From: Propionibacteriaceae bacterium
GTDB taxonomy: Bacteria; Actinomycetota; Actinomycetes; Propionibacteriales; Propionibacteriaceae
Direction of reading: 5' to 3'
Length of the DNA stretch: 14,497 nucleotides
Assembly (NCBI GenBank): GCA_027346035.1
Contig: DAIESZ010000103.1
Span: 1-14,497, forward strand
Below, piece by piece: positions 3 through 14,497 of this stretch (the first letter of the stretch is position 1; each line of letters starts with the position of its first letter). Under the pieces are notes generated by a model that ran no database searches, was not told where the DNA came from, and worked only from the letters and a program-made list of their open reading frames with translations. The position numbers were made by a program, and so were the translations under genes.

Positions 3-3000
3 GCCGCGGCCGAGCTCGGCGAACAGTTCCGCGCCGCCAGCGACTCCCAGCAAGCCACCCCAGGGTCGATCTCGGACACCCTCGCGATGCTCACCTACGC
101 CCTCGACAACGGCACGCCGCTGCCGGAGTGGGCGCATGACATCAACGAGCGCACGCTCGTCGTCATCGACGAAGCCGGGATGGCCGACACCATCTCGCTC
201 TACACCGCGGTGCAGTTCGTGCTTTCCCGCGGCGGCAGCGTCCGGCTCATCGGCGACGACCAGCAGCTGGCCGCCATCGGTGCCGGCGGGGTGCTTCGCG
301 ACATCCGCGCAACGCACGGGGCCCTCCAGCTCTCGGAGCTGATGCGGTTCAGTGACCAGGCCGAAGGAGCCGCGTCCCTGGCGCTGCGCGAAGGCCGCAA
401 TGAAGCACTGGGCTACTACCTCGACAAGCAGCGCGTCCATGTCGGCGACCTCGCGACGATGACCGAAGAGGTGTTTTCGTCCTGGCAGTTCGACCGCGGC
501 CAAGGCCTCGACGCGATCATGCTCGCCCCCACCCGCGACCTGGTCGCCGACCTCAACCAACGCGCCCGCGCCCACCGCCTCGAGGGCACCGACCCGGCCA
601 CGATCGGTCGCACGGTGCGACTCTCCGACGGCAACGACGCGTCGGTGGGCGACGTCATCATCACCCGCCGCAACCAGCGGTCCCTGCGCATGACCCGCAC
701 TGACTGGGTCAAGAACGGCGACCGCTGGACCATCCTCGACGTCACCAACAAGGGCGCCCTCCAGGTCCAGCACATGAAGACCGGCCGCATGCTCGAGCTG
801 CCTGCTTCCTTCGTCGCGCACAACACCGACCTCGGCTACGCGTGCACCGTTCACACCGCCCAGGGCGTCACCGCCGACGCGATGCACGGCCTGGCCAACG
901 GCGAAGAGTCGCGCCAGCAGCTATACACGATGATGACCCGCGGTCGGCACGCCAACCATGTCTACCTCGGCGTAGTCGGCGACGGCGACCCGCACTCGGT
1001 GATCCGGCCCGAGCTGCTCAACCCGCGCACCCCTACCGACGTTCTCGAGCGGATCCTCGCCCGCGACGCCTCCCCGAAGTCGGCGACCACGCTGCGCCGT
1101 GAGGCCTCCGACCCGGCGGTCCGACTCGCCGACGCGGCCGCCGCCTACACCGACGCCTTGTACGTCGCCGCCGAGAAGACCCTCGGCAGCGACGTCGTCG
1201 CCGGTCTCGACGAAGCCGTCGACCACGTCGTGCCGGGCCTGTCGGAAGAAGCGGCCTGGCCCGCGCTGCGTGCGCACCTCCTGCTACTCGGCGCGGCCGG
1301 GGAGGACCCCGTCGCGATGCTCACCGCGGCCGCCGGCGACCGCGAGCTGACCACCTCACGTGACTCCGCCGCAGTCCTCGACTGGCGTCTGGACGCCTCC
1401 GGACTACGCAACTCGGGCCGCGGACCGCTGCCGTGGCTGCACGCCGCACCCGCCGCGATCGCCTCCCACGAAACCTGGGGGCCCTACCTCAAGCAGCGCG
1501 CCCAGTTCGTCACCACCCTCGCCGAGCAGGTCAGGGACCGTGCCGAGTCGAGCACCATCACGCCAGCCTGGGCCACGAACGGCGCCCGCCTGGAGCCCAC
1601 AGTTCGCGGCAACGTCGAGGTCTGGCGGGCAGCGATGGGGGTCGATCCCACCGACCGTCGGCCCACCGGTCCCGCACAGCAGCAGAAGGTGGCCCGCACC
1701 TGGCAGCGGCGCCTCAACAAGCAGGTCGCCGGGGACCGGACACCGGCCATCCGCGAGTGGAAGCACGTCCTGGATGGGATCAGCACCAGCATCGCCCAGG
1801 ACGAGTTCACTCCACTTCTGGCCGAGCGTCTCGCGTCGATGTCCCGCGCGGGCGTGAACGCCCGAAGCCTCATCACCGCCGCGGCCCAGGCCGGTCCGCT
1901 GCCCGACGACCACGCCGCCGCCGCCCTGTGGTGGCGCATCTCCCGCCACGTCGCGCCCGCGGTGGCCGCACGCCTCGACGCCCGCGAGCAGGTCACCACG
2001 GCGGCCTGGACCCAGCAGCTCACGGACCTCATCGGCGCCGAGCGGGCCACCGCGCTCCAGCAGAGCTCGTGGTGGCCGGCGCTTGTCTCTGTGGTCGACC
2101 ACGGCCTCCAGCGGGGCTGGGAGCTCCCTCGGCTCCTCGGGCTCGACCCGGACAACCCGGCCCCCGTCGACGTCGACGTCGACGTCGACGAGTGCCAGGC
2201 GATGGTCTGGCGCGCCTCGATCGCCACCGACGACATCCCCACCGACAACCCCGACGACCTGAGGGACATCCCCGAGAACCTCCCGCCCAAGGACCTCGAG
2301 GACCTGCTCAACGACTTCGCCAACGAGCACGCCACCACGGAGCACGCACCTGTCCCCGACGAGCACTGGACTCCCGTCGTCGACGAGCCCTACGACCCGG
2401 CATGGGAGGAGGCCATGCTCGACCCCGAGTGGGACCACAGACACGTGCCAGTCGACACGATCGACCGCGACGACGCGTATGCAGCCGACCTCGCCGCGAC
2501 CCCGAGCGATGCGACCAACGGCCTCGACGACGACGTCGACTTCGAGGTCGACCGGACTCTTCTATTCGCGCGGATGGGTCGCGACTCCCGGATCATCGAC
2601 GAGAAGACCTTCTACTCCGACACCGACATCAGGCGGCAGATGGAGCGCGCCGACGCCTGGCACGAGTCGCCGGTCTCGCAGGAGCGGATGCTCCAGATCA
2701 ACGAGATGGCCCAGCAGTTCTTCGAGCGCCAGTTCACCGCGCCGGGAGCATGGGGCCGCCCGTACCTCACCTCCCGGTTCGGCACCGACCTGGCCGGCCA
2801 TGAGCACTTCCGGCCCGGCCAGGCGCCCGCCGGCTGGAACAACCTGGTCAAGCACCTACGTCGCCAGGGCGTCTCGGACGAAGAGATGGTGGCCACCGGT
2901 GTCGCGACCGTCGCGTCCAACGGCAACCTCATCGACCGCTTCCGTGACCGCGTGATGTTCCCCATCACCCATCCCGGACCCAACGGTCCGCAGATCCTCG

Positions 3001-4073
3001 GCTTCGTCGGCCGCCGGCACCCCGAGGTCACCGACGACCGCAACCCGAAGTACCTCAACACCGGCGCCACACCCCTGTTCAACAAGGGCGCCCAGCTCTT
3101 CGGCGTGATCGAGCCCCTGCTGTCCACAGGCGCCACTCCGGTCATCGTCGAAGGCCCGATGGACGCGATCGCGGTCACCTTGGCCACCGAAGGCGCTCAG
3201 GTCGGCGTCGCACCGCTTGGTACGTCGCTGACCGAGGACCAGGTCGCCCAGCTCGCTCGCCAGTTCCAGCGGACCGGCCGCGATCCTGTCGTGGCCACCG
3301 ACGGCGACCTTGCGGGCCAGGTCGCAGCCGAGCGCGACTTCTGGATGCTCACCGGCCGCGGCCTCGATCCGGCGCACGTCGAGATGCCCGCCGGCAGCGA
3401 CCCGGCCGGCCTGCTGGCCGAGCACGGGCCGGCCGCACTGGCCGAGGCGCTCTCCTCGCCGCGGCCGCTGGGCGAGGTGCTGCTCACCGAGCGGATCGAC
3501 CACCTGACTAACGATCGCGCCCGGCTGGAGGCGGCCAAGGTGCTCGCGGCCCAGCCGAGCCGGGCGTGGGAGCCCGGTCTCGACCAGGTCGTCGCGCGGC
3601 TTCAGGTCTCCCAGGTCCAGGCACGCCGCGACCTCGCGGCCGCAGTCACCGCGTGGGACGCCGACCCGCGACGGGCCGCCAACGAAGGCGCCAACGGCGT
3701 CAGTGACGTCAAGGCCCGCCTCGAGCAGGACAAGGCGGCCGCTCTTAGCCCCGCCGAGCGGTGGGCACCGGTCGCCCAGGCCGCCGATGCACGCCTGGTC
3801 GAGCAGCTCGACTGGCCGCTGCTCGCCAACATGATGCAGGAGATCTCCGACGCTGGGCACGACGTTGCCGCCACGGTGCGCCAGCTGGTCGACGAGGCGC
3901 CGCTCGACGACAAGCCGGCACGCGACCTGCGCTACCGGCTGGTGTCCCGCGTCGACGTCACGGTCAAGACCGGTGAGGGGCCCGCGGCCCCGGGTTCGCG
4001 CCGCGGCGCGGCGCAGGCTCGCCGCCAGCCGGCCCCTCCCCCGACACAGCGGCCGAACGGCCCTCGTCGCTGA
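3..4073 (+). CDS. MobF/TraI-type conjugative relaxase-helicase fused to a DnaG-like primase core (5' partial)
   Basis: The frame is open from base 3, so the first ATG (base 87) is internal and the N-terminal relaxase domain and Walker A lie outside the window. Counting the codon at 3-5 as residue 1, RecD/TraI-like SF1 helicase motifs are present: Walker B VVIDEAGM (D56, E57), GDDQQL (84-89), TVHTAQG (282-288) and MTRGR (311-315). A long poorly conserved, partly acidic middle follows. From about residue 892 a DnaG-type catalytic core begins, with FRDRVMFPI and PKYLNTGATPLFNKG. Its Toprim domain has EGPMD (E1050, D1054) and TDGDLAG (D1100, D1102). No CHC2 zinc finger is visible between helicase and core. 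The tail is basic and Pro/Arg-rich. Known role of the family: nicking at oriT and unwinding the transferred strand. The fused core suggests priming in the recipient (inference). The call is sure; primase activity is not shown. Confidence 0.93.
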   Translation, partial: AAAELGEQFRAASDSQQATPGSISDTLAMLTYALDNGTPLPEWAHDINERTLVVIDEAGMADTISLYTAVQFVLSRGGSVRLIGDDQQLAAIGAGGVLRDIRATHGALQLSELMRFSDQAEGAASLALREGRNEALGYYLDKQRVHVGDLATMTEEVFSSWQFDRGQGLDAIMLAPTRDLVADLNQRARAHRLEGTDPATIGRTVRLSDGNDASVGDVIITRRNQRSLRMTRTDWVKNGDRWTILDVTNKGALQVQHMKTGRMLELPASFVAHNTDLGYACTVHTAQGVTADAMHGLANGEESRQQLYTMMTRGRHANHVYLGVVGDGDPHSVIRPELLNPRTPTDVLERILARDASPKSATTLRREASDPAVRLADAAAAYTDALYVAAEKTLGSDVVAGLDEAVDHVVPGLSEEAAWPALRAHLLLLGAAGEDPVAMLTAAAGDRELTTSRDSAAVLDWRLDASGLRNSGRGPLPWLHAAPAAIASHETWGPYLKQRAQFVTTLAEQVRDRAESSTITPAWATNGARLEPTVRGNVEVWRAAMGVDPTDRRPTGPAQQQKVARTWQRRLNKQVAGDRTPAIREWKHVLDGISTSIAQDEFTPLLAERLASMSRAGVNARSLITAAAQAGPLPDDHAAAALWWRISRHVAPAVAARLDAREQVTTAAWTQQLTDLIGAERATALQQSSWWPALVSVVDHGLQRGWELPRLLGLDPDNPAPVDVDVDVDECQAMVWRASIATDDIPTDNPDDLRDIPENLPPKDLEDLLNDFANEHATTEHAPVPDEHWTPVVDEPYDPAWEEAMLDPEWDHRHVPVDTIDRDDAYAADLAATPSDATNGLDDDVDFEVDRTLLFARMGRDSRIIDEKTFYSDTDIRRQMERADAWHESPVSQERMLQINEMAQQFFERQFTAPGAWGRPYLTSRFGTDLAGHEHFRPGQAPAGWNNLVKHLRRQGVSDEEMVATGVATVASNGNLIDRFRDRVMFPITHPGPNGPQILGFVGRRHPEVTDDRNPKYLNTGATPLFNKGAQLFGVIEPLLSTGATPVIVEGPMDAIAVTLATEGAQVGVAPLGTSLTEDQVAQLARQFQRTGRDPVVATDGDLAGQVAAERDFWMLTGRGLDPAHVEMPAGSDPAGLLAEHGPAALAEALSSPRPLGEVLLTERIDHLTNDRARLEAAKVLAAQPSRAWEPGLDQVVARLQVSQVQARRDLAAAVTAWDADPRRAANEGANGVSDVKARLEQDKAAALSPAERWAPVAQAADARLVEQLDWPLLANMMQEISDAGHDVAATVRQLVDEAPLDDKPARDLRYRLVSRVDVTVKTGEGPAAPGSRRGAAQARRQPAPPPTQRPNGPRR
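2166..2189 (+). repeat. Four tandem copies of GTCGAC inside the relaxase gene
   Basis: Four perfect 6-bp units GTCGAC lie head to tail in frame and encode four Val-Asp pairs. They sit at the start of the acidic linker between helicase and primase parts. Such a repeat can gain or lose units without shifting the frame. I see no other function. Confidence 0.85.
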
Positions 4074-4185
4074 CCCATCCATCGGTGACACCCTCGACGA
4101 CCTCTTCCCGGGGTCGGGGGCAGTCGGCCGAGCATGGGGCGTCTATGCGGGCCACGAGCGGCCCCAACGCCTCACCGCACTGTGA
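4072..4185 (+). pseudogene. Remnant resembling the C-terminus of a DNA methyltransferase
   Basis: One frame reads DPSIGDTLDDLFPGSGAVGRAWG and about 15 more residues to a TGA at 4183-4185. The core DLFPGSGAVGRAW resembles the DPF/DLF-xGSG SAM-binding motif found near the C-terminus of beta-class DNA methyltransferases and of small actinobacterial relatives. The frame has no start codon or ribosome site of its own. Upstream it runs into the relaxase gene in a different frame, and its last bases overlap the 3' end of the opposing umuC. It therefore looks like the tail of a gene whose front part was lost when neighbouring DNA was joined. It could also be a chance resemblance, since the segment is only 37 residues. 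Confidence 0.4.
4149..4164. terminator. Weak hairpin between convergent relaxase and umuC genes
   Basis: GGGCC and GGCCC arms (5 bp) surround a 6-base loop in the 98-bp gap between the two convergent stop codons. There is no T-run on either strand, so an intrinsic terminator is only a guess. The rest of the gap holds the methyltransferase-like remnant. Confidence 0.2.
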
Positions 4186-5449
4186 GCACTTCGGCCCAGC
4201 TGGTGGTCGCTGCGGGTGAGAGTCGTTCGCGGCGCATCTCCCACCGCGGCGCGGTGCGCAGGCCGGCAAGCCCGTAGCCCACGACAGCGCGGCCGTGTCG
4301 GCGAGCGAGCTCGTCGACGGCGACCGCCAGGCGCTCGCGCGCGGGGTCGCTGCCGCCCCACAGGGCCGGCTGGCTCCCGGCCGGGGTGAGGCCAGTCAGG
4401 AGGACCCCGGCACGGTTGTGCGGGTGCCCGGTCCGCATCCGGGCCAGGACGGGCCGGGTCGCCTCGACGAGGCGTAGCGGGTCGGATGTCGGCGGGTCCA
4501 GGGCGACCGAGATCGACTTGTGCTCGACGTGATCCCGGAAACGGCTGCTGCTGATCCAGACGGTCATCAGCGCCGCCTCGAGGTCGTGGATCCTGAGCCG
4601 TCGGGCTGCGCTGGCGGCGTAACTGGCCAACACGTCGCCCATCTCCTGTGGAGAGTCGACGGTCCGGCCGAGCATCCGGGAGAACATGATCTGCTTGCGC
4701 TGGGGTGCCACGTACTCGACGGGCATGCAGGGCACGCCGGCGAGCTCGCGGCCGGTGCGCTCGACGACGACGGACCAGCCGCGTCGCAGCACGCCCGGGT
4801 CGACCAGGGCGAGGTCGAGGGCGGTGTGCACATCGAGGCGTGCAAGGCCGGCCGTCAGCCGGCGGCCGACGCCCCAGACCTCCGAGACCGGGGTCTCGGC
4901 GAGCAGGTCGCGGACCTCCCCGGGCTTCCAAGTCGTCAGGTCCACGAGCGGTGAGCGGGTGGTCTTGGCGTGCCGCTGGGCGACCTTGGCCAAGACCTTG
5001 GTGCTGCCCACGCCTGCGGCGGTGGGCAGTCCGGTCCACCGGCGTACCCGGTGCTGGACCGCTGCGACGTGGCCCGCGGGGTCGCGCCGGTCGGTCTCGA
5101 AGAACGCCTCGTCGACCGAGTAGACGCACGAGACGGCGCTCATCCCCGCGACGATCGTGTGGAAGCGGCTGCTGTAGCCTCCGTACTCCGCGTAGTTCGA
5201 CGACCGGGCCACCAGCGCCGACAAGTGGGGCTTCTCCCGCAGCTTGAACCACGGGTCGCCCATGCGGACGCCGAGTGCCTTGGCCTCGTCGGTCCTACTG
5301 ACGGCGCAGCCGTCGTTGTTGGACAGCACGATCAACGGCACGTCGACCAGGGTTGGGTCGAGTTCGCGCTCGACCGAGCAGAACATGGAGCGGACGTCGA
5401 CCAGGGCGACGGGCTGGGCCGAGCTCGCTCGTCCCCAGGACGGGCTCAC
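4172..5449 (-). CDS. umuC: UmuC-like Y-family DNA polymerase (catalytic subunit of a Pol V-type enzyme)
   Basis: This 425-residue protein matches UmuC in length and motif order. The palm begins LVDVRSMFCSVE (metal ligand D18). VLSNNDGCAVSRTDEAKALG follows at 41-60, then VYSVDEAF with D113 and E114. A helix-hairpin-helix (SEVWGVGRRLTAGL) spans about 189-202. Near the C-terminus, QPALW at 360-364 sits where E. coli UmuC has its clamp-binding QLNLF. All catalytic carboxylates are present. The GTG start at 5449 overlaps the umuD stop as GTGA, so the genes are translationally coupled. The same frame stays open to an ATG at 5914, but that extension lies over umuD in another frame and is Arg/Pro-rich, so I reject it. 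The known role is error-prone translesion synthesis. Control is through the LexA box ahead of umuD. Confidence 0.93.
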   Translation of the reverse strand: MSPSWGRASSAQPVALVDVRSMFCSVERELDPTLVDVPLIVLSNNDGCAVSRTDEAKALGVRMGDPWFKLREKPHLSALVARSSNYAEYGGYSSRFHTIVAGMSAVSCVYSVDEAFFETDRRDPAGHVAAVQHRVRRWTGLPTAAGVGSTKVLAKVAQRHAKTTRSPLVDLTTWKPGEVRDLLAETPVSEVWGVGRRLTAGLARLDVHTALDLALVDPGVLRRGWSVVVERTGRELAGVPCMPVEYVAPQRKQIMFSRMLGRTVDSPQEMGDVLASYAASAARRLRIHDLEAALMTVWISSSRFRDHVEHKSISVALDPPTSDPLRLVEATRPVLARMRTGHPHNRAGVLLTGLTPAGSQPALWGGSDPARERLAVAVDELARRHGRAVVGYGLAGLRTAPRWEMRRERLSPAATTSWAEVLTVR

Positions 5450-5895
5450 CGCACGCGCCGACGCCCGGCGGGCGCGGTCCCGTCGTAGCCGCGGCCAAGG
5501 TCGAGGCGGTGGATCACCCAGGTGACGACACCGAAGACCTCGAGCGGCGCGTCGTCGGGACTGAGCAGCAGTTCCTCCTCGTCGGTGACCAGCGCAGCTC
5601 GGCCGCCGACCGACTCGCACCGGGCGAGCCGGTGCTCGCCCTCGTGGACGAAGACCGCGACCGCACCGAGGCGCGCGGCTTGGGAGCGGTCGACGACGAT
5701 GACGTCGCCGGCTCGAATGCCGAGGCTCGCTAGGGAGTCGGAGGCGACCTGCATCGGGTACGCGGCCTCCCGGCGTGGCATCAGCAGCTTGTCCAGGGAG
5801 ACCAGTCCCTCGTAGTGGTCCTGAGCCGGCGAGGGAAAGGAGGCGGTCTGCTCGACCGCCAATAACTCTCCCTGGATCGAACGTATGTTCGACAT
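5446..5895 (-). CDS. umuD: UmuD-like S24-family protein, apparently unable to self-cleave
   Basis: The protein has 149 residues from the ATG at 5895. It aligns with E. coli UmuD without gaps through the key region: FPSPAQDHYEGLVSLDKLL at 20-38 (E. coli FPSPAADYVEQRIDLNQLL), SDSL with nucleophile Ser54, and the C-terminal LEVFGVVTWVIH. The residue 37 positions after the serine, Lys97 in E. coli, is Ala91 here. The scissile pair Cys24-Gly25 becomes Ala18-Ser19. The fold is clearly kept but the Ser-Lys dyad is not. The start is uncertain: ATG 5895 could be leaderless, whereas TTG at 5862 (codon 12) has AGGGAGAG just upstream and would place the LexA box ahead of the gene. The TTG form would begin only seven residues before the old cleavage point. 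It overlaps umuC by 4 bp. It should act as the UmuC partner under SOS control. Confidence 0.85.
   Translation of the reverse strand: MSNIRSIQGELLAVEQTASFPSPAQDHYEGLVSLDKLLMPRREAAYPMQVASDSLASLGIRAGDVIVVDRSQAARLGAVAVFVHEGEHRLARCESVGGRAALVTDEEELLLSPDDAPLEVFGVVTWVIHRLDLGRGYDGTAPAGRRRVR
5877..5892. promoter_or_regulatory. LexA-binding SOS box
   Basis: TCGAACGTATGTTCGA is a perfect palindrome and an exact match to the actinobacterial/Gram-positive SOS consensus TCGAAC-N4-GTTCGA. It directly abuts the candidate umuD ATG at 5895-5893 and covers codons 2-7 of that reading. If translation starts at TTG 5862, it lies just upstream of the ribosome-binding sequence. Either position would let LexA block the umuDC operon. 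Confidence 0.93.
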
Positions 5896-5902
5896 GATGC
5901 AC

Positions 5903-5908
5903 AGGGTA
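5903..5908 (-). promoter_or_regulatory. Candidate -10 element for umuDC
   Basis: TACCCT on the minus strand fits the loose actinobacterial TANNNT pattern. It lies seven bases before the ATG at 5895, the spacing expected for a leaderless transcript starting at that ATG. No clear -35 is visible at 16-18 bases. The LexA box would then overlap the transcription start. Confidence 0.4.
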
Positions 5909-5950
5909 GACCACCTGCCGAGCACGCAGACGAGACGGCTACGCAGCCCG

Positions 5951-5976
5951 CTCGAATCGAGTCGGTTTCTCGATTC
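5951..5976. promoter_or_regulatory. Inverted repeat in the umuD / small-gene divergent region
   Basis: GAATCGAG (5954-5961) and CTCGATTC (5969-5976) form a perfect 8-bp inverted repeat with a 7-base spacer. The left arm also belongs to an 11-bp palindrome, CTCGAATCGAG (5951-5961). It sits in the roughly 150-bp gap between the umuD start and the rightward small gene. It resembles an operator for a dimeric regulator but does not match the LexA consensus. The regulator is unknown. Confidence 0.4.
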
Positions 5977-6043
5977 TGCTGCGGCGCCCCCGACCTGCGT
6001 GCCACGCCCGAAGACCGCCGGTAGCCTCCACCAGGTAGAGGAG

Positions 6044-6329
6044 TTGCCGCACGGATTCGATGTCCCCATCGACGTCGCCCATGACGGCGAGATCATCTGG
6101 GACGGCAACGCCGTCGCGCAGCCCCAACCCGATCCACGGCTCTGGACCGTCATCGAGTGGCGCGGCTCCCACGGCGTCATCGTCGACGAGCACGCCGACG
6201 AAACCCGGCGGGCTCGTCCAGCTCGTCGAGCTCGACGCGGCCGGCGGCGAGGAGGGCCCGGTCTACACGCTCGAGCACCGCAGCCGTCCGGGCTGGACCG
6301 ACGAGTCCGGCGCGATCGCAAAGCTCTGA
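6044..6329 (+). pseudogene. Small hypothetical gene split by a +1 frameshift
   Basis: Two overlapping frames make one sensible protein. The first runs ELPHGFDVPIDVAHDGEIIW and on to GVIVDEHADE. The second continues PGGLVQLVELDAAGGEEGPV and ends SGAIAKL with TGA at 6327-6329. Removing one A from the run at 6201-6203 joins them as DEHADE-PGGLVQL, about 94 residues. Past that point the first frame turns Arg-rich and meaningless. The likeliest start is TTG 6044, after GTAGAGGAG; a possible -10, TAGCCT, lies at 6022-6027. I do not recognise the family. The soluble, acidic sequence has no membrane segment. The break may be a true mutation or a sequencing error, and programmed shifting is less likely because I see no slippery site. 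Confidence 0.5.
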
Positions 6330-6336
6330 CGACCGA

Positions 6337-6361
6337 CACCGCAGCCGCAAGGGTCGCGGTG
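6337..6361. terminator. Hairpin just after the frameshifted gene
   Basis: CACCGC (6337-6342) and GCGGTG (6356-6361) form a 6-bp stem starting seven bases after the stop codon, with a 13-base loop. No T-run follows, so this is a weak terminator candidate. Confidence 0.25.
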
Positions 6362-6570: not shown

Positions 6571-7560
6571 CTATCGCTCGGGCATCAATGCGATACGACC
6601 GCTGAGCGATCGGTTCTCCATGCGCTCGTGCGCTGCTGCGGCCTCACTCAGGGGCAGGACGTCAACCTCGGTCTGCCCGAGCCCGGCTGCGACGGCGTCC
6701 ACGGCGGCCTCGAGCGCCGGGCGAATGACCTCCGGGTGAGCGGGGAGTAGGGCGCCGGCATTGAACCCGGCGATCGCGACGCTGCCGAACCAGAGCTGGT
6801 TGGTGTCCAGCGTGTGATCCCACTGGCCGCTCGCGTTGCCCGAGGCGATGAGGCGGCCGCCGGGCGCCATGACGGCCAGGCTGTCGGCGCGAAGCTGTCC
6901 CCCCACGGGGTCGACGACCACGTCGAACCTCTCGTCGCCGAGCACACGCAACAGGTCCGTGGAGTCGACGACCTCGTCATACGGCAGTCTGGTCGACGCT
7001 GCGGCCGCGAGCTTGCTGGGCCGGACAGTCCCGACCACGCGCGAGGCGCCTAGTTCCCGCGCGATGCCGGGGAAGGCCGCCGCGAAGCCACCCAGCGCAC
7101 CATGGATCAGCACACGCTCGCCCGCAGCCAGGTGCGCGATCCGCGTGAGGGCCACATGCGCCATCGCCGCGTTCGGCACCACGGAGACCGCGAGGGCAGG
7201 GTCGATCCCACGTCCTTCGATCGACACCACGGCCGAGGTGGGCGCCACATAGATGGAGGCATAGCCGCCGAGACCGCTGCCGTCGGACATGGTGACGACC
7301 TGCTCTCCGACCTCGAGACCGGTGACACCGTCGCCCAACGCGCGAACCGTGCCGGCGACCTCCAGGCCGGGGACGAAGGGCGGCTTCGCAGACCCGGGCT
7401 GATCCTTGAAGAGGCCCTGACGGAAGAAGACGTCGATGAGGCCGACGGCCGCGTGCGAGACATCGATGGTGACCTGCCCTGGACCCGGCACGGGGTCGGG
7501 GCGCTCTGCGAGCCGCAGCACGGACGGAGCGCCGAAGTCGGTCGCCAGAACAACCTGCAT
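6571..7560 (-). CDS. Zinc-independent quinone oxidoreductase-type medium-chain dehydrogenase
   Basis: This 329-residue enzyme has the full-length MDR layout. The GroES-like N-terminal domain has HAAVGLIDVFFRQGLF (36-51) and PFVPGLEVAGTVRALGDGV (61-79). A Rossmann domain follows with HGALGGFA (153-160), the NADPH-binding turn, and FDVVVDPVGG. No zinc-binding cysteine cluster is seen, which fits the QOR subgroup. Family members reduce quinones or activated alkenes with NADPH in the cytosol; the substrate here is unknown. The ATG at 7560 has AAGGAGAAG seven bases upstream. The gene is divergent from the TetR gene, and its likely -10 overlaps an operator palindrome, so repression by that TetR is expected. 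Confidence 0.9.
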   Translation of the reverse strand: MQVVLATDFGAPSVLRLAERPDPVPGPGQVTIDVSHAAVGLIDVFFRQGLFKDQPGSAKPPFVPGLEVAGTVRALGDGVTGLEVGEQVVTMSDGSGLGGYASIYVAPTSAVVSIEGRGIDPALAVSVVPNAAMAHVALTRIAHLAAGERVLIHGALGGFAAAFPGIARELGASRVVGTVRPSKLAAAASTRLPYDEVVDSTDLLRVLGDERFDVVVDPVGGQLRADSLAVMAPGGRLIASGNASGQWDHTLDTNQLWFGSVAIAGFNAGALLPAHPEVIRPALEAAVDAVAAGLGQTEVDVLPLSEAAAAHERMENRSLSGRIALMPER

Positions 7561-7613
7561 GAGAAGTCTTCTCCTTGGGCCATCGCATCCGGAGGCTCAA
7601 GGCTCGGATCGCG

Positions 7614-7619
7614 TCTATA
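7614..7619 (-). promoter_or_regulatory. Candidate -10 of the oxidoreductase promoter
   Basis: TATAGA on the minus strand is a good -10 match. It lies 53 bases upstream of the oxidoreductase ATG and overlaps the edge of the operator at 7617-7640. No well-spaced -35 is visible (TTGCCG at 7646-7641 would be 21 bases away). Confidence 0.45.
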
Positions 7620-7640
7620 ACGCATCGCACGATGCGTTAT
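7617..7640. promoter_or_regulatory. Operator 1: perfect 11-bp inverted repeat
   Basis: The half-sites ATAACGCATCG and CGATGCGTTAT are exact reverse complements around a 2-bp centre (CA), 24 bp in all. Size and symmetry fit a TetR dimer site. It lies between the divergent oxidoreductase and TetR genes and touches the oxidoreductase -10. Confidence 0.85.
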
Positions 7641-7665
7641 CGGCAAACTACCACGCCGTCCGCCC

Positions 7666-7687
7666 TAGCGCATCACCTGACGCGTTA
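7666..7687. promoter_or_regulatory. Operator 2: imperfect copy of the same palindrome next to the TetR start
   Basis: TAGCGCATCA and TGACGCGTTA (8 of 10 positions complementary) flank a 2-bp centre. They match operator 1 half-sites TAACGCATCG and CGATGCGTTA closely. The centres of the two operators are 48 bp apart. This copy ends nine bases before the TetR ATG and overlaps its likely -10 (TTAAAC, 7685-7690), which suggests autorepression, probably with weaker binding. Confidence 0.7.
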
Positions 7688-7696
7688 AACTCCGGC

Positions 7697-8353
7697 ATGC
7701 GCGAACGGGCTCGGTCGATCCAGGACAAGGCGCAGCGATCGGAAGATCTGCTGGACGCAGCCGAAGCTCTCGCCCTCGAGCTAGGGGGCGTGCGGTTCGT
7801 GACCGTCGTCGCCGTCACCGAGCGGGCCGGCCTTCATCGCACGGGCGCGCGCCGCTACTACGCGAGCAAGGAGGAGCTGCTCCTCGAGCTTGCCGAACGT
7901 GGCTGGGGGCAGTGGCACGGCGCCGTCGTCTCGGAGCTCGCGGAGCGGTCCGATCTCACGCCCAGACAGGTGGCAGAGCTCGTCGCCGAGACCATCGCTT
8001 CTCTTCCGGTGTTCTGTGATCTGCTCTCCCATGTCGCGATGAGTCTCGAGGGCGACGTCGACATCGAACGAGCGCGGCGTTACAAGAGGAACTCATTCGA
8101 CGTTCACGACCGGATGGTGACCTCGCTGGCTGGGGCAAGCACGATGACCACCCGTCAAGTTGAGGAACTTCTCGCAGCTGCCGTTGCGTTCGCCGCGGGG
8201 TTCTGGCAGGTCTCCCATCCGACCTCGAGCCTGGCCGCTCTCTACCGGCAGGTGCCCGAATGGGGCCACATAGCGCTCGACTTCACACCCAAGCTCACTC
8301 ATCTCTTGAGGGCGACGGCCATGGGTCTGGTCGCGCTTGAGCTGAACCACTGA
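7697..8353 (+). CDS. TetR-family transcriptional regulator
   Basis: The 218-residue protein has an N-terminal TetR helix-turn-helix. DLLDAAEALALELGGVRFVT leads into VVAVTERAGLHRTGARRYYASKEELLLEL (about 37-65), with the typical recognition helix and the YYASKEELL end. The C-terminal ligand domain is helical and unassigned. The ATG at 7697 was chosen because the longer open frame upstream crosses the operators and has no TetR-like sequence. No ribosome site is visible, and TTAAAC lies six bases before the ATG, so the transcript is probably leaderless. It likely represses itself and the divergent oxidoreductase through the two palindromes. Its inducer is unknown, perhaps a quinone or electrophile given the partner enzyme (inference). 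Confidence 0.92.
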   Translation: MRERARSIQDKAQRSEDLLDAAEALALELGGVRFVTVVAVTERAGLHRTGARRYYASKEELLLELAERGWGQWHGAVVSELAERSDLTPRQVAELVAETIASLPVFCDLLSHVAMSLEGDVDIERARRYKRNSFDVHDRMVTSLAGASTMTTRQVEELLAAAVAFAAGFWQVSHPTSSLAALYRQVPEWGHIALDFTPKLTHLLRATAMGLVALELNH

Positions 8354-8891: not shown

Positions 8892-9551
8892 TCAGTCCTC
8901 GACGTCGCCGAGGATTTCGCCGGAGGTGGTGTCGACGATGCTGAGGCGCTTCGGGGTGACTCCGTTGCGGCCGCCGCGGGTGGGACGCGGCACGTTGCTG
9001 AGCGCGTCGAGGTCGGCTGCGTAGACGTTCTCGCGCTCCTCGAGGGAGTCTTCGGAGATGTGACGTGTGTAGCGGCCGCGGGAGGGCCAGCCCTTGTGTC
9101 CGTCGGTGCAGTGGTCCTTGAGCCGGCCGCGCATCCGGTCGACGAAGGAGGGCAGGACGTAGCGGTGCCACTCCTCGAGCGGGTCGCTGGTGACGCCGAA
9201 CATGGTGCGGCGGCGCTGGTCGGCGACGACGGCGACCTCGTGGACGATGTGTGGGTGCATCGGCCAACAGCTGGGGATGAGTGGGGCGACGTCCCAGGCG
9301 TACTCGTGGTTGATCCAGGTGACGACTTCCTCGAGCCAGGCCCAGACCTCGTTGCGGAGCTCGGGGTCCTGGCAGGTCTCGGGGTCCCAGGGCTTGGGGA
9401 GGTTGATGATCGGTCCGAGGGCCTTCTTCTCCTCGTCGGTGCCGTTGATCGCGATGTTGAGTTCCTTGTATGCGAGCGCGATCCGCGGGCCGGGTGTGGG
9501 GAACGGGAGCACCATGAGCTCGTAGGAGACGCGCTCGGGGCTGATCGTCAT
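8892..9551 (-). CDS. DUF4913-type conserved protein of actinobacterial mobile elements
   Basis: The 219-residue soluble protein contains VWAWLEEVVTWINHEYAWDV followed by PLIPSCWPMHPHIVHEVAVV and WHRYVLPSFVDRMRGRL. This W-x-W-L / C-W-x-x-H-P pattern is what I recall for DUF4913, common in actinobacterial plasmids and integrated elements, function unknown. The family name is from memory, not a search. The ATG at 9551 overlaps the coupling-ATPase stop as ATGA, with GAGAGGA upstream, so the two are translationally coupled. That coupling suggests it works with the ATPase, for example as a substrate adaptor (inference). A much longer open frame in the same phase runs back across the ATPase gene and is a high-GC shadow. 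Confidence 0.75.
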   Translation of the reverse strand: MTISPERVSYELMVLPFPTPGPRIALAYKELNIAINGTDEEKKALGPIINLPKPWDPETCQDPELRNEVWAWLEEVVTWINHEYAWDVAPLIPSCWPMHPHIVHEVAVVADQRRRTMFGVTSDPLEEWHRYVLPSFVDRMRGRLKDHCTDGHKGWPSRGRYTRHISEDSLEERENVYAADLDALSNVPRPTRGGRNGVTPKRLSIVDTTSGEILGDVED

Positions 9552-11020
9552 CGGTAGGTCCTCTCGATGCGGGTGTCGCTGGTGAGGCCGCGGCGGCGGG
9601 CCTCGACGAGGGCGGCTTCGGCGGTTGCCTCGGGGGTGACGACGAGCCGCTGGGACTCGTTGAGTTTGTCGCGCAGCCGCTTCTGGTCGGCGAGCAGCTG
9701 GCGGCCGCGGGCGCCTTCGATGGAGCGGTGCAGCTTGGCGATGATGGGCTTGCCGTTCTCGGCGATCACCAGGGCCTGGCCTTCGGGGAGGCGGCGGATC
9801 TCGCCGGAGGTGAGGATCGGGATGTCTTCGCCGGAGATGGTGCGGCCGGCCATCGTGCCGGACTGCCAGCTGGTGCGGTGGACCCTGACGGTGTCGAGCA
9901 GGTCGGAGATCTGCTGGTTGAAGTTGCCGTCTTTGGAGCCGCCGAAGATGGCGAGCACGTTGGTCAGCCCGATGACGGCCTCGGCTTCCTTCTCTCCGAA
10001 GATCGCGTCGAGCTGGGCCCGAACCTGGGCGGCCCAGATGAAGGAGAGACCGAGTGCGCGTTCGTTGGCCATCCGGGTGCGCAGGGTGGGCAGGGGTGCG
10101 GTCGAGGGCATCTCGTCGAGGACCGCGAGCAGCGGCGGACACAGCCGGCCGCCCCATGGGGACTGGTTGGCCAGCAGCAGGCCGGTGTCGAGGACCTGCT
10201 CGGCGACCGCGGTCATCATCGGCGACGCCGAGGCGTAGGGGTCCTCGCGGCCGAGGAGGTAGATGGTGCCGTCGCGGCGTACGACGTCGAGCAGGTTGGT
10301 CACGGGCCGGTCGGGGCCGGGGACGCAGCGGCGGCGGGTCTCTTCCTGGAAGAACAAGGCCATCGACTGCTGCATGGTCGTGATGGTGTTGCCGGCGGTG
10401 CGGTCGTCGCCGTAGAGGGCACGGTGGAGCAGGCCGTTCCAGAACTTCGCGGCGTGCGGGTGCTGGGAGAGGATCTCCTCGGGCTCGGTGGTGCCGGTGG
10501 GGTTGGCGACCCAGCCCAGGACGTCGTCGAGGTTGCGGCCGGTGAGTGCGGCGGCGTGGAAGTAGCACTTGAGGACCTTGGCGGACTCTTCTGCGTAGAA
10601 CCGGGCGGCGTCGTCGCCGGAGCCTTCGGTCATGGCGCCCTTGACGGTGCCGGCGGCGAAGGCCTTGGCTCGCCGTTCGGCGATCCTCGAGGAGACGCAC
10701 CCGTCGATGGGGTCCCAGACGACTTCGTCGACGACGCCCTCGGCGAGACCGAAGGGGTCGAGGACCACGCTCGGTCGGCCGTCGCGGGAGCGCTCGCTGA
10801 GGCTGAGCAGCAGATCCTCGGGTTTGGTGAGGGTGACCAGTGCGGCCCCGGGTGCGTCGAGCAGGGCCGGGGTGAGGATGTCGAGGGTCTTGCCGGATCC
10901 CTGAGGGCCGATCACGCCGGCGGTGCGGTCGAAGGGCACCCACAGCTCGCCGCCGCGGGGTTCGTGGGCGTCGCCGAGACGCCATCCGACGTCGGTGGGG
11001 TTGAGTCCGATCTTCTTCAC
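9548..11020 (-). CDS. VirD4/TraG-type coupling ATPase lacking membrane segments
   Basis: This is a 490-residue P-loop ATPase. Walker A is GPQGSGKT (38-45), Walker B is LLAVLDE (D302, E303), and VLDPFG at 86-91 follows the pattern of TraG-like coupling proteins. It delivers the relaxase-DNA complex to the type IV secretion channel. The usual N-terminal membrane helices are missing: the protein starts at KKIGLNPTDVGWRLG, about 37 residues before Walker A. I chose the GTG at 11020, with GAGGA upstream, which overlaps the preceding stop as GTGA; GTG 11026 is an alternative. The gene just upstream encodes a two-helix membrane protein with the missing anchor region, so the two probably form one coupling protein in two pieces. 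The frame is intact throughout. Confidence 0.92.
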   Translation of the reverse strand: MKKIGLNPTDVGWRLGDAHEPRGGELWVPFDRTAGVIGPQGSGKTLDILTPALLDAPGAALVTLTKPEDLLLSLSERSRDGRPSVVLDPFGLAEGVVDEVVWDPIDGCVSSRIAERRAKAFAAGTVKGAMTEGSGDDAARFYAEESAKVLKCYFHAAALTGRNLDDVLGWVANPTGTTEPEEILSQHPHAAKFWNGLLHRALYGDDRTAGNTITTMQQSMALFFQEETRRRCVPGPDRPVTNLLDVVRRDGTIYLLGREDPYASASPMMTAVAEQVLDTGLLLANQSPWGGRLCPPLLAVLDEMPSTAPLPTLRTRMANERALGLSFIWAAQVRAQLDAIFGEKEAEAVIGLTNVLAIFGGSKDGNFNQQISDLLDTVRVHRTSWQSGTMAGRTISGEDIPILTSGEIRRLPEGQALVIAENGKPIIAKLHRSIEGARGRQLLADQKRLRDKLNESQRLVVTPEATAEAALVEARRRGLTSDTRIERTYR

Positions 11021-11676
11021 AGCCACGTCCTCGTCTTCCCGGTGTTGGTTGCCTTCGGCGTCTTTTCGACCCTCACGGGCGACGCGACGTTCTCGCTGTT
11101 GCGCACGGGCAGGAACCGCTTGGACAGGCCGCGGCCCAGCGAGCTGCTCTTCGGCTCGTAGCCCGGGTCGGGGTCGCGGTAGATGACCTGCTGGGCGGCG
11201 GCGGACTGCTTGCTGCCGTACAGGTCGGGGCGTACGACGCCGGCGACCTTGCGGAGGCGGGTGCGGCCCAGGAGTCGTTCGGCCTCTTCGCGGCTGGCCA
11301 TGCCCAGAACCCGCCATGGCCCCCAGGTGCGCAGCACGTAGAAGGTGGCGACGCCGTAGGCGACCACGAGGACGAATTCGGTGCCGATCACCCATCCGTG
11401 CAGTGCGCCGGTGCTGGCCAGGTGCCCCAGCTGGCGAGGGTAGGCGAGGCCAGCGGCAGGGTCGCCGCCGATGACGTGGAAGATGCTGGTGACGACGTTC
11501 TTGGCCAGCGGCCAGGTGAACCCGGCACCGGCGAACCAGTTGGCCAGGCCGCGTCCGACCTGGATGCCGAGGAGAAGGACCATCAGGAGCATCAGCGCCC
11601 ACAGGGCGAACGGCTCCCAGGTCCAGGGGTATGGGTCGTGCCGGCGGGCGACCTGCATCCGTTCACGAACAGCCAT
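11017..11676 (-). CDS. Two-helix membrane protein, likely detached anchor of the coupling protein
   Basis: The 219-residue protein has two hydrophobic segments, about 23-44 (FALWALMLLMVLLLGIQV) and 95-117 (WVIGTEFVLVVAYGVATFYVL). After them comes a cytoplasmic-type region, MASREEAERLLGRTRLRKV and GVVRPDLYG. As I recall, single-chain actinobacterial TraG-like proteins have a similar segment between their membrane helices and ATPase domain. A basic, Ser/Thr-rich tail ends at the stop, which overlaps the ATPase start. The ATG at 11676 has AAGGAAG seven bases upstream. The role is inferred from layout: membrane anchoring of the ATPase at the secretion channel. It could instead be an independent channel component. 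Confidence 0.8.
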   Translation of the reverse strand: MAVRERMQVARRHDPYPWTWEPFALWALMLLMVLLLGIQVGRGLANWFAGAGFTWPLAKNVVTSIFHVIGGDPAAGLAYPRQLGHLASTGALHGWVIGTEFVLVVAYGVATFYVLRTWGPWRVLGMASREEAERLLGRTRLRKVAGVVRPDLYGSKQSAAAQQVIYRDPDPGYEPKSSSLGRGLSKRFLPVRNSENVASPVRVEKTPKATNTGKTRTWL

Positions 11677-11731
11677 GGCGGTGCTTCCTTCGGTCGGTTG
11701 ATCGGGTTCGTCTCTCACCCACAGAAGGCAT

Positions 11732-11746
11732 CGAGGAGGGTCCTCG
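11732..11746. terminator. Short hairpin after the large transfer gene
   Basis: CGAGGA and TCCTCG pair perfectly around a GGG loop, three bases downstream of the large gene's stop in the 73-bp gap before the membrane-protein gene. No T-run follows. It may act as an attenuator or protect the mRNA end; function not shown. Confidence 0.3.
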
Positions 11747-11749
11747 TGC

Positions 11750-14497
11750 TCACGCGGCGAGGGACGACTTGACCGGTGCGCCCCACGGGACGACCCAGCC
11801 CTTGTAGCCGCCCTGGCTGGCCAGCCACTTCTGCACATCGGCGGCCGGGCCGATCTTGGCGGTGCCATTGCCCCAGGTGTCGGTGCCGGCGACGAGGTTG
11901 TTGCCCAGGTAGACCACGACGTGGTTGTCGCCGTAGTAGAGCCACGCCCCTGCGGGCGGGCTCATCCCGTCGGCACTGCCGGCTGGGTGGGCGGCGCCGG
12001 TGGCCAGGAAGTGCTGCCACGCTGCTGCTGCGGAGTCGTAGCCGCTTGAGGAGCGGCCGTCGAGGTTGGCGACGAAGTGCTGGCAGTCGCGGTACCAGCT
12101 GCCGTCCGGCTCGGTGCCGAAGAACGGGTCCAGGTTCCCGCCGGACCCGTTGAGGGCCATGATCTTCTGCATCCGGGCGACCAGCTCGCCGGGCGAGTAG
12201 GGCCCGACGTAGGCCACCGAGGTGTTCGGCGTGAAGTTTCCGCTGCCGGTCATCCCGGCCGGGAGGGCGCTGCCGGTGTTGCAGGTCGCGACGGCGGGGA
12301 TGGTTCCGCCGGCGACTGCCGCGATGGCCTGGCGGGCGGTGGGCCCATACTTGGTCTCGTTGGCGGCGGTGTGGGCCGACCAGTCGTCGAATCGGCCGGC
12401 GGGGCCGCCGTCGCCGAGCTTGGAGCCACCGCGGCCGAGGTAGAGGGCGAAGGCCTGGCGGGCGTTGGCGAGCGGGTCGTAGATGCCCGGCACGCTGACA
12501 CCGGCGTGGATGGAGCTGATCTGCCACAGCCCGTAGACGTAGTAGGTGTGCCCGCCGGAGGAGTAGTGGTTGATGGCGTGGGTGTTGTAGCTCGACTCGC
12601 CGCCGGCTATCCAAACCATCGTGTAGAGGTCGTTGCCGCGGAACCCGGCCTGGTAGGCGGCCGCGGCGGCAACCTCGGCGTCGTGGAGCGGGCCGGTGCT
12701 GGCGCTGGTCAGGGTGATCGAGTCGCCTCCGGTGCCACCGGTCGGGCAGGGCGGACAGCCGGGCGATCCGGTGGTGTCGCCGACCTGCTCGGTTGATCCC
12801 TGGCCGCTGCTGGTGGGCGGGGTTCCGGAGATTGCGTTCGCGCCGACGCCGCCCATGTCGATGCTGGTGAGCAGGGCGTGGGGGTGGTCGGAGTCGACGT
12901 TGATGAGCCGCTCGCCGACGTCGCGGGTGCCGTGCGGGAAGAACTGGTAGATCACAGCTCGGTCGAAGGAGTAGCCGAACCCGTTGAGCGCCATCTGGTC
13001 CGGTGCCGACCAGCCGCCCTGATCGGGGTGGACGTTCATGTCGCCGGCCATCAGGACCGGGCCGTAGGCGGAGAGCTGCACGACCAGGGCGCGCAGCTTC
13101 GTCATGCCGTCGGCGTACTGGGCGACCCGGGACGGCCACTGGTAGTCGCCGTGGGTGCGGCGCTGCACCTGCGGGTTGGTCATGTTGTGGGTGGAGATGA
13201 CCACGACCTGCGCGCCGTCGGAGGCGCGGCGCAGGATCGCCCAGGTGGCGTAGCGGTTCCAGTCGACCGGCTTGCCCTTGAACACGACCAGGTCGTGCTC
13301 GACGTACTCGTAGCGGCCGGCGTCGACCAGGTGCCACTTGGAGGTGTCCCACATGACGGCGTTCTCCATGGAGTTCGCGCCACCGTCGTGGTGGACGTTC
13401 GTGGCCGGGTCCTTGTAGGCCCCGTAGCCCGGCGCGGCCAAGGCGAGCTGGCGGGCTGACCAAGAGGAGACCTCGTTGAGGGCGATGAAGTCAGGTTGGG
13501 CGGCCGCGATCGTGCGGATCGAGCCGGCGCGGCCGCCGACGTGTGACTGGGGAAGGTTGGCGGCGGCCATCTTGACGATGCCTTGCACCGGCTGACCGGG
13601 CTGCGCGTTGCGGACCACCGGGAGTACGCCGAGCTGCTCGCCGGAGCCGACCTGACCGCCCTGGGCCTGCGGGTCTCCCGCGACCGCGTCGCCGGCTCCG
13701 TGTGCGTTCCCGCCCGATGCAGAGTTTCCGGTGGTGTCGCCGGCGGCCGCGGCGACGGTGGCCGTGGTGTGCAGGAACGGGTGGTCGGTGTAGGCGTGGG
13801 CGTTGTCGTTGGTGGACTGGTCGACGACGGTGCCGTTGAAGGTGACGCCGGGGCCGCCCATGATCCAGTCGATCTGCTTGCTGGTGGGGTTGGCGGTCGA
13901 CCAGCCCGGCGTCAGTGAGAGGAATAGCTGCTTGAACCGGGTCTTGTCGTTCATGTCGCCGGTGAAGAACAGGGGCGTGGTGGGGTCGGAGGTTTGCTGC
14001 TGACGTAGCGCCTGGGCCTCGGCCCGGACAGCGGAGTCGCGCATCGTGTTGGAGCCGTTGACGACGTTGGCGGGGTTGTGGGTGTTGAGGACCCACACGT
14101 CTCCGATGCCGGTGGTTGAGGAGAACCGGACGAGTGGGATGTCCTCGGGGGTGCCGCCGTAGTTGATCCTGACGTAGCGGGTCTCGGCGACGGTCCAGGC
14201 CGAGGGCTGGTAGGCGATCGCGTCGCGGGCGTCGGCCTGGCCGTGCACCCGGCCTCGCGCGAGGGCCCACTGGCCGTGGGTGGCGTCGAGGAAGGCTTGG
14301 GCCTGTGGCGGCTCGAACTCCTGGAAGCCGATGATCGAGGCGCCGGAGGCATTGATCTTGGCGATCATGTTCGGGACGCGCTTGGAGTAGGGCTGCTCGC
14401 CGGGGTGCGGGTTCTTCGTGTAGTGCGAGGCGCCGCGCCAGTTGAGCGTGCCGATGCCGAAGTCCCCTCCGCCGCTGCCGCCAGCGGCGGTGGTGCA
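11750..14497 (-). CDS. Multidomain secreted-type protein: two EEP nuclease-fold domains, lytic transglycosylase and Cys/His peptidase (5' partial)
   Basis: The frame is open to the right edge: 915 residues are visible, and the ATG at 14368 is internal. Numbering from base 14497: EEP domain 1 (about 13-248) has TLN (N19), FQE (E60), NTH (H140), GDMN (D181, N183) and TDHP (D238, H239). EEP domain 2 (about 308-548) has AAN (N314), LNE (E342), STH (H437), GDMN (D486, N488) and SDHP (D537, H538). Both catalytic sets are complete. A lysozyme-like domain follows (about 600-735, E634 in GGESSYN, then GLWQIS), then a CHAP or NlpC/P60-like domain (about 760-910, C805 in RDCQHFV, H859 in DNHVVVYLG). Gly/Ser-rich linkers separate them. 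The last two domains resemble VirB1-type wall hydrolases of conjugation systems. The EEP pair is unexpected; substrates could be DNA, RNA or phospho-compounds. Confidence 0.9.
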   Translation of the reverse strand, partial: CTTAAGGSGGGDFGIGTLNWRGASHYTKNPHPGEQPYSKRVPNMIAKINASGASIIGFQEFEPPQAQAFLDATHGQWALARGRVHGQADARDAIAYQPSAWTVAETRYVRINYGGTPEDIPLVRFSSTTGIGDVWVLNTHNPANVVNGSNTMRDSAVRAEAQALRQQQTSDPTTPLFFTGDMNDKTRFKQLFLSLTPGWSTANPTSKQIDWIMGGPGVTFNGTVVDQSTNDNAHAYTDHPFLHTTATVAAAAGDTTGNSASGGNAHGAGDAVAGDPQAQGGQVGSGEQLGVLPVVRNAQPGQPVQGIVKMAAANLPQSHVGGRAGSIRTIAAAQPDFIALNEVSSWSARQLALAAPGYGAYKDPATNVHHDGGANSMENAVMWDTSKWHLVDAGRYEYVEHDLVVFKGKPVDWNRYATWAILRRASDGAQVVVISTHNMTNPQVQRRTHGDYQWPSRVAQYADGMTKLRALVVQLSAYGPVLMAGDMNVHPDQGGWSAPDQMALNGFGYSFDRAVIYQFFPHGTRDVGERLINVDSDHPHALLTSIDMGGVGANAISGTPPTSSGQGSTEQVGDTTGSPGCPPCPTGGTGGDSITLTSASTGPLHDAEVAAAAAYQAGFRGNDLYTMVWIAGGESSYNTHAINHYSSGGHTYYVYGLWQISSIHAGVSVPGIYDPLANARQAFALYLGRGGSKLGDGGPAGRFDDWSAHTAANETKYGPTARQAIAAVAGGTIPAVATCNTGSALPAGMTGSGNFTPNTSVAYVGPYSPGELVARMQKIMALNGSGGNLDPFFGTEPDGSWYRDCQHFVANLDGRSSSGYDSAAAAWQHFLATGAAHPAGSADGMSPPAGAWLYYGDNHVVVYLGNNLVAGTDTWGNGTAKIGPAADVQKWLASQGGYKGWVVPWGAPVKSSLAA

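Follow-up and report, generated by a model that had tools for sequence, protein, structure and literature searches.

The contig DAIESZ010000103.1 of a Propionibacteriaceae bacterium (C142; 14,497 nucleotides, analyzed whole and called the window here) encodes a putative wall hydrolase in which two endonuclease/exonuclease/phosphatase (EEP) domains are fused to a lysozyme-like and a CHAP-like domain. The gene lies a short way upstream of that of a TraG/VirD4-type coupling ATPase, both on the minus strand, and hydrolases with EEP domains recur in this position in related transfer regions on mobile elements of some soil actinobacteria. We read the protein as a VirB1-type envelope hydrolase of actinobacterial conjugation whose EEP domains would cut a phosphorylated wall polymer, a reading that, taken as a whole, has a probability of about one-half. 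The source genome is incomplete (77% complete, 384 contigs). The features that carry the argument are the following.

11750..14497, minus strand: gene of the EEP-EEP-SLT-CHAP-like protein, a 915-codon frame with its stop at 11750 and its 5' end missing at the contig edge (14497)
13742..14470, minus strand: EEP1 domain, residues 10-252, with N19, E60, H140, D181, N183, D210, D238, and H239
12839..13600, minus strand: EEP2 domain, residues 300-553, with the IDY-motif Asp replaced by Ile516
12443..12664, minus strand: lysozyme-like SLT_3 domain, residues 612-685, with Glu634 (Pfam PF18896, 6.5e-9, above the cutoff)
11783..12205, minus strand: CHAP-like Cys/His domain, residues about 765-905, with Cys805 and His859, by homology to L016 and L027
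9548..11602, minus strand: TraG/VirD4-type coupling ATPase, matching part 9671-11005 (Pfam TraG-D_C, 2.7e-21; T4SS-DNA_transf, 1.3e-14)

The first-pass annotation of this DNA had described four domains in one frame, each with its catalytic residues. The four domains stand, but the full catalytic set is found in EEP1 and not in EEP2. Pfam places Exo_endo_phos (PF03372) on two stretches of the protein at 1e-14 and also finds the SLT_3 domain, whose Glu at the catalytic position is conserved in every one of the 14 type-I rows. None of the eight catalytic residues (N, E, H, D, N, D, D, H) is lost in EEP1, and they are invariant in 16 chosen rows; six of the eight positions are identical in all 77 distinct EEP domains. 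The position that Ile516 occupies in EEP2 is that of an Asp which we take to be the partner of the catalytic His; EEP2 retains the remaining positions, and the nearby Asp512 is invariant among EEP2 domains of the window's type. The C-terminal domain gave no direct Pfam match, even at an E value of 1, and was linked to CHAP through L016, with which it aligns at 6e-10 and which itself matches CHAP at 4.4e-7. Its predicted structure is of low confidence (mean pLDDT, 50.6), too poor for a structure search. Since EEP1 and EEP2 fall into separate clades of the EEP tree (where L062 and L070 form long branches of uncertain placement), a recent tandem duplication of one EEP domain was ruled out. A titin match was also rejected, having no score of its own as a domain.

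A search with the window protein gave some match in 10 of 72,556 plasmid records, including pNOCA01 of Nocardioides sp. JS614 (coverage, 99%; identity, 42.5%) and pTC1 of Paenarthrobacter aurescens TC1 (coverage, 72%; identity, 51.2%), and a scan of species genomes added 16 loci, 11 of them long matches (L028-L038) and 5 EEP only. The 13 full-length relatives considered here (L023, L024, and L028-L038) include these two plasmids and Nocardioides genomes. All 13 start with two lysines and a hydrophobic helix, followed by EEP1; residue 1 of the window protein aligns to residue 37 of the pNOCA01 frame. A gene for a VirB4-like ATPase lies upstream in 12 of the 13 and TraG downstream in 12, and the relatives without one of these flanking genes, L028 and L032, are contig ends; the window itself stops short of the place where a VirB4-like ATPase gene would be expected. 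The initially proposed fusion of EEP domains to a wall hydrolase encoded in a transfer operon recurs beside TraG and a VirB4-like ATPase, and a single-contig artifact was rejected given the 13 relatives and the further domain orders found in named plasmids and genomes. Existing annotation names the pNOCA01 gene as an “endonuclease/exonuclease/phosphatase family protein” and the pTC1 gene as a “transglycosylase, SLT family.” As a separate observation, a gap of 4 to 6 kb separates the VirB4-like ATPase gene from the hydrolase gene in L024 (11976-17932), L035 (5528-9896), and L038 (5042-9878). It holds an annotated integrase gene in L024, and an integrase gene lies directly upstream of the hydrolase in L026, so that the gap may mark a hot spot for insertions that spare the hydrolase. 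L030, on a contig filed under Anaerolineales (Chloroflexota), has EEP domains nearly the same as those of L028 from an uncultured Propionibacterium and is perhaps misbinned or recently transferred.

To survey the gene position more broadly, we used the pNOCA01 TraG as the query against 391 genomes of the order, obtained a match at 1e-20 in 201, and took 93 regions around the closest TraG genes together with 7 further ones that were more distant or came from other families. By our own domain profiles, an EEP protein is present in 33 of the 93 regions (31 with narrower EEP profiles), always upstream of TraG and on the same strand, with the ATPase further upstream in 26 of the 33. Other putative hydrolases were found in 51 regions, 4 of which rest on an M15-like label alone, and no hydrolase was detected by these profiles in 9; EEP was found in none of the 7 additional regions. 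Some survey regions coincide with contigs already represented by other loci (e.g., L054 and L031, and L107 and L025). L062, L070, L059, L060, and L100 match the wider EEP profile by construction because they are among its seeds; Pfam backs the EEP domain in all of them except L062, whose assignment comes from motifs read by eye. All searches combined yield 47 distinct EEP-hydrolase proteins, judged by their last 250 residues; among these, L004 and L005 apparently represent the genes of L122 and L101 over a shorter stretch. EEP modules combine with SLT, M23, M15-like, and CHAP-like modules in nine domain orders, as follows.

EEP-EEP-SLT-CHAP: 5 regions, the window, and the relatives, with a varying C-terminal domain
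EEP-SLT-EEP-M15like-M23: 20 regions
SLT-EEP-M15like-M23: 3 regions, L087 and L116 among them resembling damaged or truncated EEP-SLT-EEP-M15like-M23
EEP-M15like-M23: one region
SLT-EEP-M15like: one region
M15like-M23-EEP: one region
SLT-M23-EEP: one region
M23-SLT-EEP: one region
SLT-EEP-CHAP-like: plasmid pB-N39

Pfam finds EEP and M23 together in L025, L026, L060, L070, L092, and L100 and EEP in L027 and L059. The M15-like label is weak, resting on a motif seen by eye and our own profile; Pfam M15 was not matched in L025 and L026 at 0.1 or in L059, L060, L092, L100, L117, L080, and L103 at 0.01. The presence of EEP upstream of TraG in about one-third of the regions, in so many orders, indicates on sequence grounds that EEP is an interchangeable module of the VirB1-type hydrolase. 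In a TraG tree built by a quick method, EEP presence needs at least 3 changes and may reflect one gain and two losses. The window TraG, on a long branch, groups with carriers of the EEP-SLT-EEP-M15like-M23 order and not with those of its own, suggesting that hydrolase and TraG genes may have been reassorted. We also observed that the hydrolase genes of L116, L100, and L087, which belong to the EEP-SLT-EEP-M15like-M23 type, have a first EEP that is truncated, missing, or no longer in frame and keep the rest.

Beyond this set, a plasmid search with L060 covered one record to at least 80% (Nocardioides QY071), and one with L070 covered none to that extent. When L027 was compared with plasmids, Streptomyces rows covered 34 to 41% in two pieces, as if the EEP domain were skipped. 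In other orders of the class, the matches listed for L027 were confined to its SLT part and stopped by about residue 244; that scan scored only 3 candidates a genome and, like the plasmid searches, is a sample, not proof of absence. A phage origin is not backed by the searches made for it: 50,697 phage records gave no match, and viral_contigs yielded no confirmed locus.

Clues to the substrate come from EEP genes at chromosomal loci, of which 21 are distinct (L039-L043 and L154-L171, minus L157 and L170, repeats of L039 and L165). In 12 of the 21 there is a gene whose product resembles the LicD-methyltransferase of L039, and in 11 one for a PLD-like protein; Pfam LicD was above the cutoff in all four loci checked (L039, L041, L156, and L168). 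LicD-type enzymes make phosphodiester decorations on surface polymers. Three of the loci that have both LicD- and PLD-like genes (L154, L155, and L156) each also carry separate EEP1-type and EEP2-type genes, so that the modules fused in the window are neighboring genes there. The five EEP1-type chromosomal proteins that were read have a signal- or anchor-like N terminus. By profile, EEP1 is nearest to glycan-phosphatase-like Bacteroides EEP proteins, which come first, and has no DNase I match at E values up to 1. Taken together, the LicD neighbors, the wall-hydrolase company, and the glycan-phosphatase-like sequence point to a phosphorylated wall polymer, and from these sequence comparisons we favor its cleavage over degradation of DNA. 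Among the actions put forward in the first-pass annotation (on nucleic acid, a phosphorylated surface polymer, extracellular DNA, or the recipient), the surface polymer is thus the one favored, from indirect evidence. Seen on its own, the LicD-type set (L039, L041, L043, L154-L156, L159, L160, L162, L165, L168, and L169, from Nocardioides-like genomes) is a variable locus with EEP, LicD-methyltransferase-like, and mostly PLD-like genes, possibly a surface-polymer locus.

Several observations weigh against this reading. The LicD match extends over no more than about the initial 30 of 227 profile positions, with Pfam checks made in 4 of the 12 loci, and all 12 share a flanking acyl-CoA dehydrogenase-like gene, which makes them one syntenic locus rather than twelve cases; L040 and L042 have the same flanking gene without LicD or PLD. 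Seven further loci (L158, L161, L163, L164, L166, L167, and L171) are also without LicD and PLD, and their examined neighbors are mixed, including a DNA-repair glycosylase (L167), a GDSL lipase (L166), and a PIG-L deacetylase (L163). All 15 distinct type-I EEP2 domains have Ile where the catalytic Asp should be (Ile516 in the window protein), the weak profile list of EEP2 includes exonuclease III at an E value of 0.1, and the window gene is without its own N terminus, cut off by the contig edge. Fold matches also include TDP2 (22.6), nocturnin (22.3), CNOT6L (21.4), and sphingomyelinase (18.8); the EEP fold cannot tell nuclease, phosphatase, and phospholipase apart.

It is conceivable, although rather unlikely, that the EEP domains are surface nucleases that clear extracellular DNA or RNA at the mating junction or destroy competing DNA. 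The profile ranking of EEP1 and the LicD-type neighbors described above speak against this, and an exposed nuclease beside the channel would endanger the transferred DNA. The sphingomyelinase match raises the idea of a phospholipase C-like enzyme acting on envelope phospholipids of donor or recipient and easing pore formation, which we consider improbable: the match says little because the match list hardly sampled EEP2, and the domains fused to EEP are wall hydrolases, not lipid enzymes. A role mainly in binding or regulation, with enzyme function lost in this protein, has a precedent in PrgK, whose degenerate LytM domain and CHAP domain without detected activity dampen the muramidase (PMC11323569), and the Asp-to-Ile change in type-I EEP2 would fit it. 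However, EEP1 keeps every catalytic position, and the identity of six positions across all distinct domains is as expected for enzymes, which makes this last alternative a poor candidate as well.

Under the wall-polymer reading, a single N-terminal helix would anchor the protein, and its catalytic domains would be exposed at the cell exterior. Judging from their families, the lysozyme-like and CHAP-like domains would cut peptidoglycan, and the EEP modules, EEP1 above all, would be metal-dependent phosphodiesterases or phosphatases acting on a teichoic-acid-like phosphorylated polymer on or in the wall. EEP2 may be slower, repaired by the nearby Asp512, or in part a binding or regulatory domain. 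The decorated wall of the donor, and perhaps of the recipient, would thereby be opened locally for the DNA channel. This picture draws on the architecture, the relatives' hydrophobic N terminus, the position relative to the VirB4-like ATPase and TraG, the domain swapping, the EEP residues, and the fold, and extends from these to a presumed secretion topology, activity, substrate, and role at the mating site. In many Gram-positive bacteria the wall contains abundant phosphodiester polymers, which lie in the same layer as peptidoglycan; phosphoester-cutting modules, if the reading is true, would explain passage through that layer. More tentatively, the proteins could form a new class of VirB1-type hydrolase that joins peptidoglycan cutting with EEP “teichoicases” derived from chromosomal surface-polymer loci, the EEP modules being swapped in and out between elements to fit donor and recipient wall polymers and helping to set transfer host range. 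The wall-polymer reading would, if true, also tie plasmid host range to the chemistry of wall polymers in a way open to testing, and the modules shuffled at one gene position offer a ready natural series for comparing domain function.

The remainder of the window holds two further genes close to TraG, which is 60% identical to the TraG of pNOCA01.

11017..11676, minus strand: small membrane protein with its ATG at 11676, between the hydrolase gene and TraG, from sequence read by eye
8973..9518, minus strand: gene after TraG, in the same place as in pNOCA01 and 42% identical to its counterpart there

The longer open reading frame that covers the small membrane protein (11017-11868) matched no Pfam family; the protein may be the membrane portion of a coupling protein that is split. 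The gene at 8973..9518 matched no Pfam family at 0.001. Elsewhere, a frame at 3-4073 (plus strand, 5' open) joins the C-terminal part of a TraA-type relaxase/helicase with DnaG_N and Toprim, amounting to a helicase-primase fusion in a conjugation protein. Overlapping frames at 4172-6339 (minus strand) resemble a umuDC pair adjoining the transfer genes: one product is an ImpB/MucB/SamB polymerase with DUF4113, the other a Peptidase_S24 protein. A zinc-binding dehydrogenase and a divergent TetR-type regulator (6571-8353), between relaxase and transfer genes, are perhaps cargo.

The first-pass annotation knew of no EEP domains in transglycosylase-peptidase proteins. The accessible text of a 2025 review of type IV secretion names CHAP, SLT, MUR, and LytM domains for VirB1-type proteins, and the Gram-positive members described there act on peptidoglycan (PMC12857230). 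In that text, the 11 uses of words ending in “nuclease” concern relaxases, VirD proteins, or references rather than VirB1, “phosphodiesterase” is absent, and teichoic acid occurs once, as the recipient ligand of the adhesin PrgB (PMC12857230). The literature searched, a scope that left out preprints and most subscription papers, does not describe EEP in VirB1-type proteins. The first-pass annotation had spoken of a new kind of transfer-associated enzyme; given the known VirB1-type kind and the recurring EEP module, the protein is better described as a real, recurring variant of the VirB1-type hydrolase, with a new part of presumptive function. Like PrgK of pCF10 (DELTA class, LytM-MUR-CHAP), it would be a membrane-anchored multidomain wall hydrolase of Gram-positive conjugation with lysozyme-like and CHAP domains, the anchor being predicted from the hydrophobic N terminus of the relatives (PMC11323569 and PMC12857230). 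Of the LytM, SLT/MUR, and CHAP domains of PrgK, MUR alone showed activity, which was dampened by the LytM and CHAP domains (PMC11323569). The window-type protein differs in having two EEP domains and no LytM, and its full-length relatives are without the long cytoplasmic domain ahead of the anchor. TraG of pIP501 (ALPHA class, SLT-CHAP) would share SLT, CHAP, and membrane anchoring with it (PMC11323569 and PMC12857230) but is without EEP domains. The nearest solved structures by EEP1 profile, the Bacteroides EEP proteins 3mpr and 3g6s and the mannosyl-6-phosphatase 4c1r, have the same fold but were solved without wall-hydrolase domains and show 15 to 16% identity in structural alignment. Among the sequences aligned, the nearest EEP1 relatives outside transfer regions are chromosomal Nocardioides EEP proteins such as L039 and L041 (30 to 34% identity), which likewise have a signal- or anchor-like N terminus; the two scanned with Pfam differ in being without a wall-hydrolase domain, and one of these two is fused to a type I phosphodiesterase domain.
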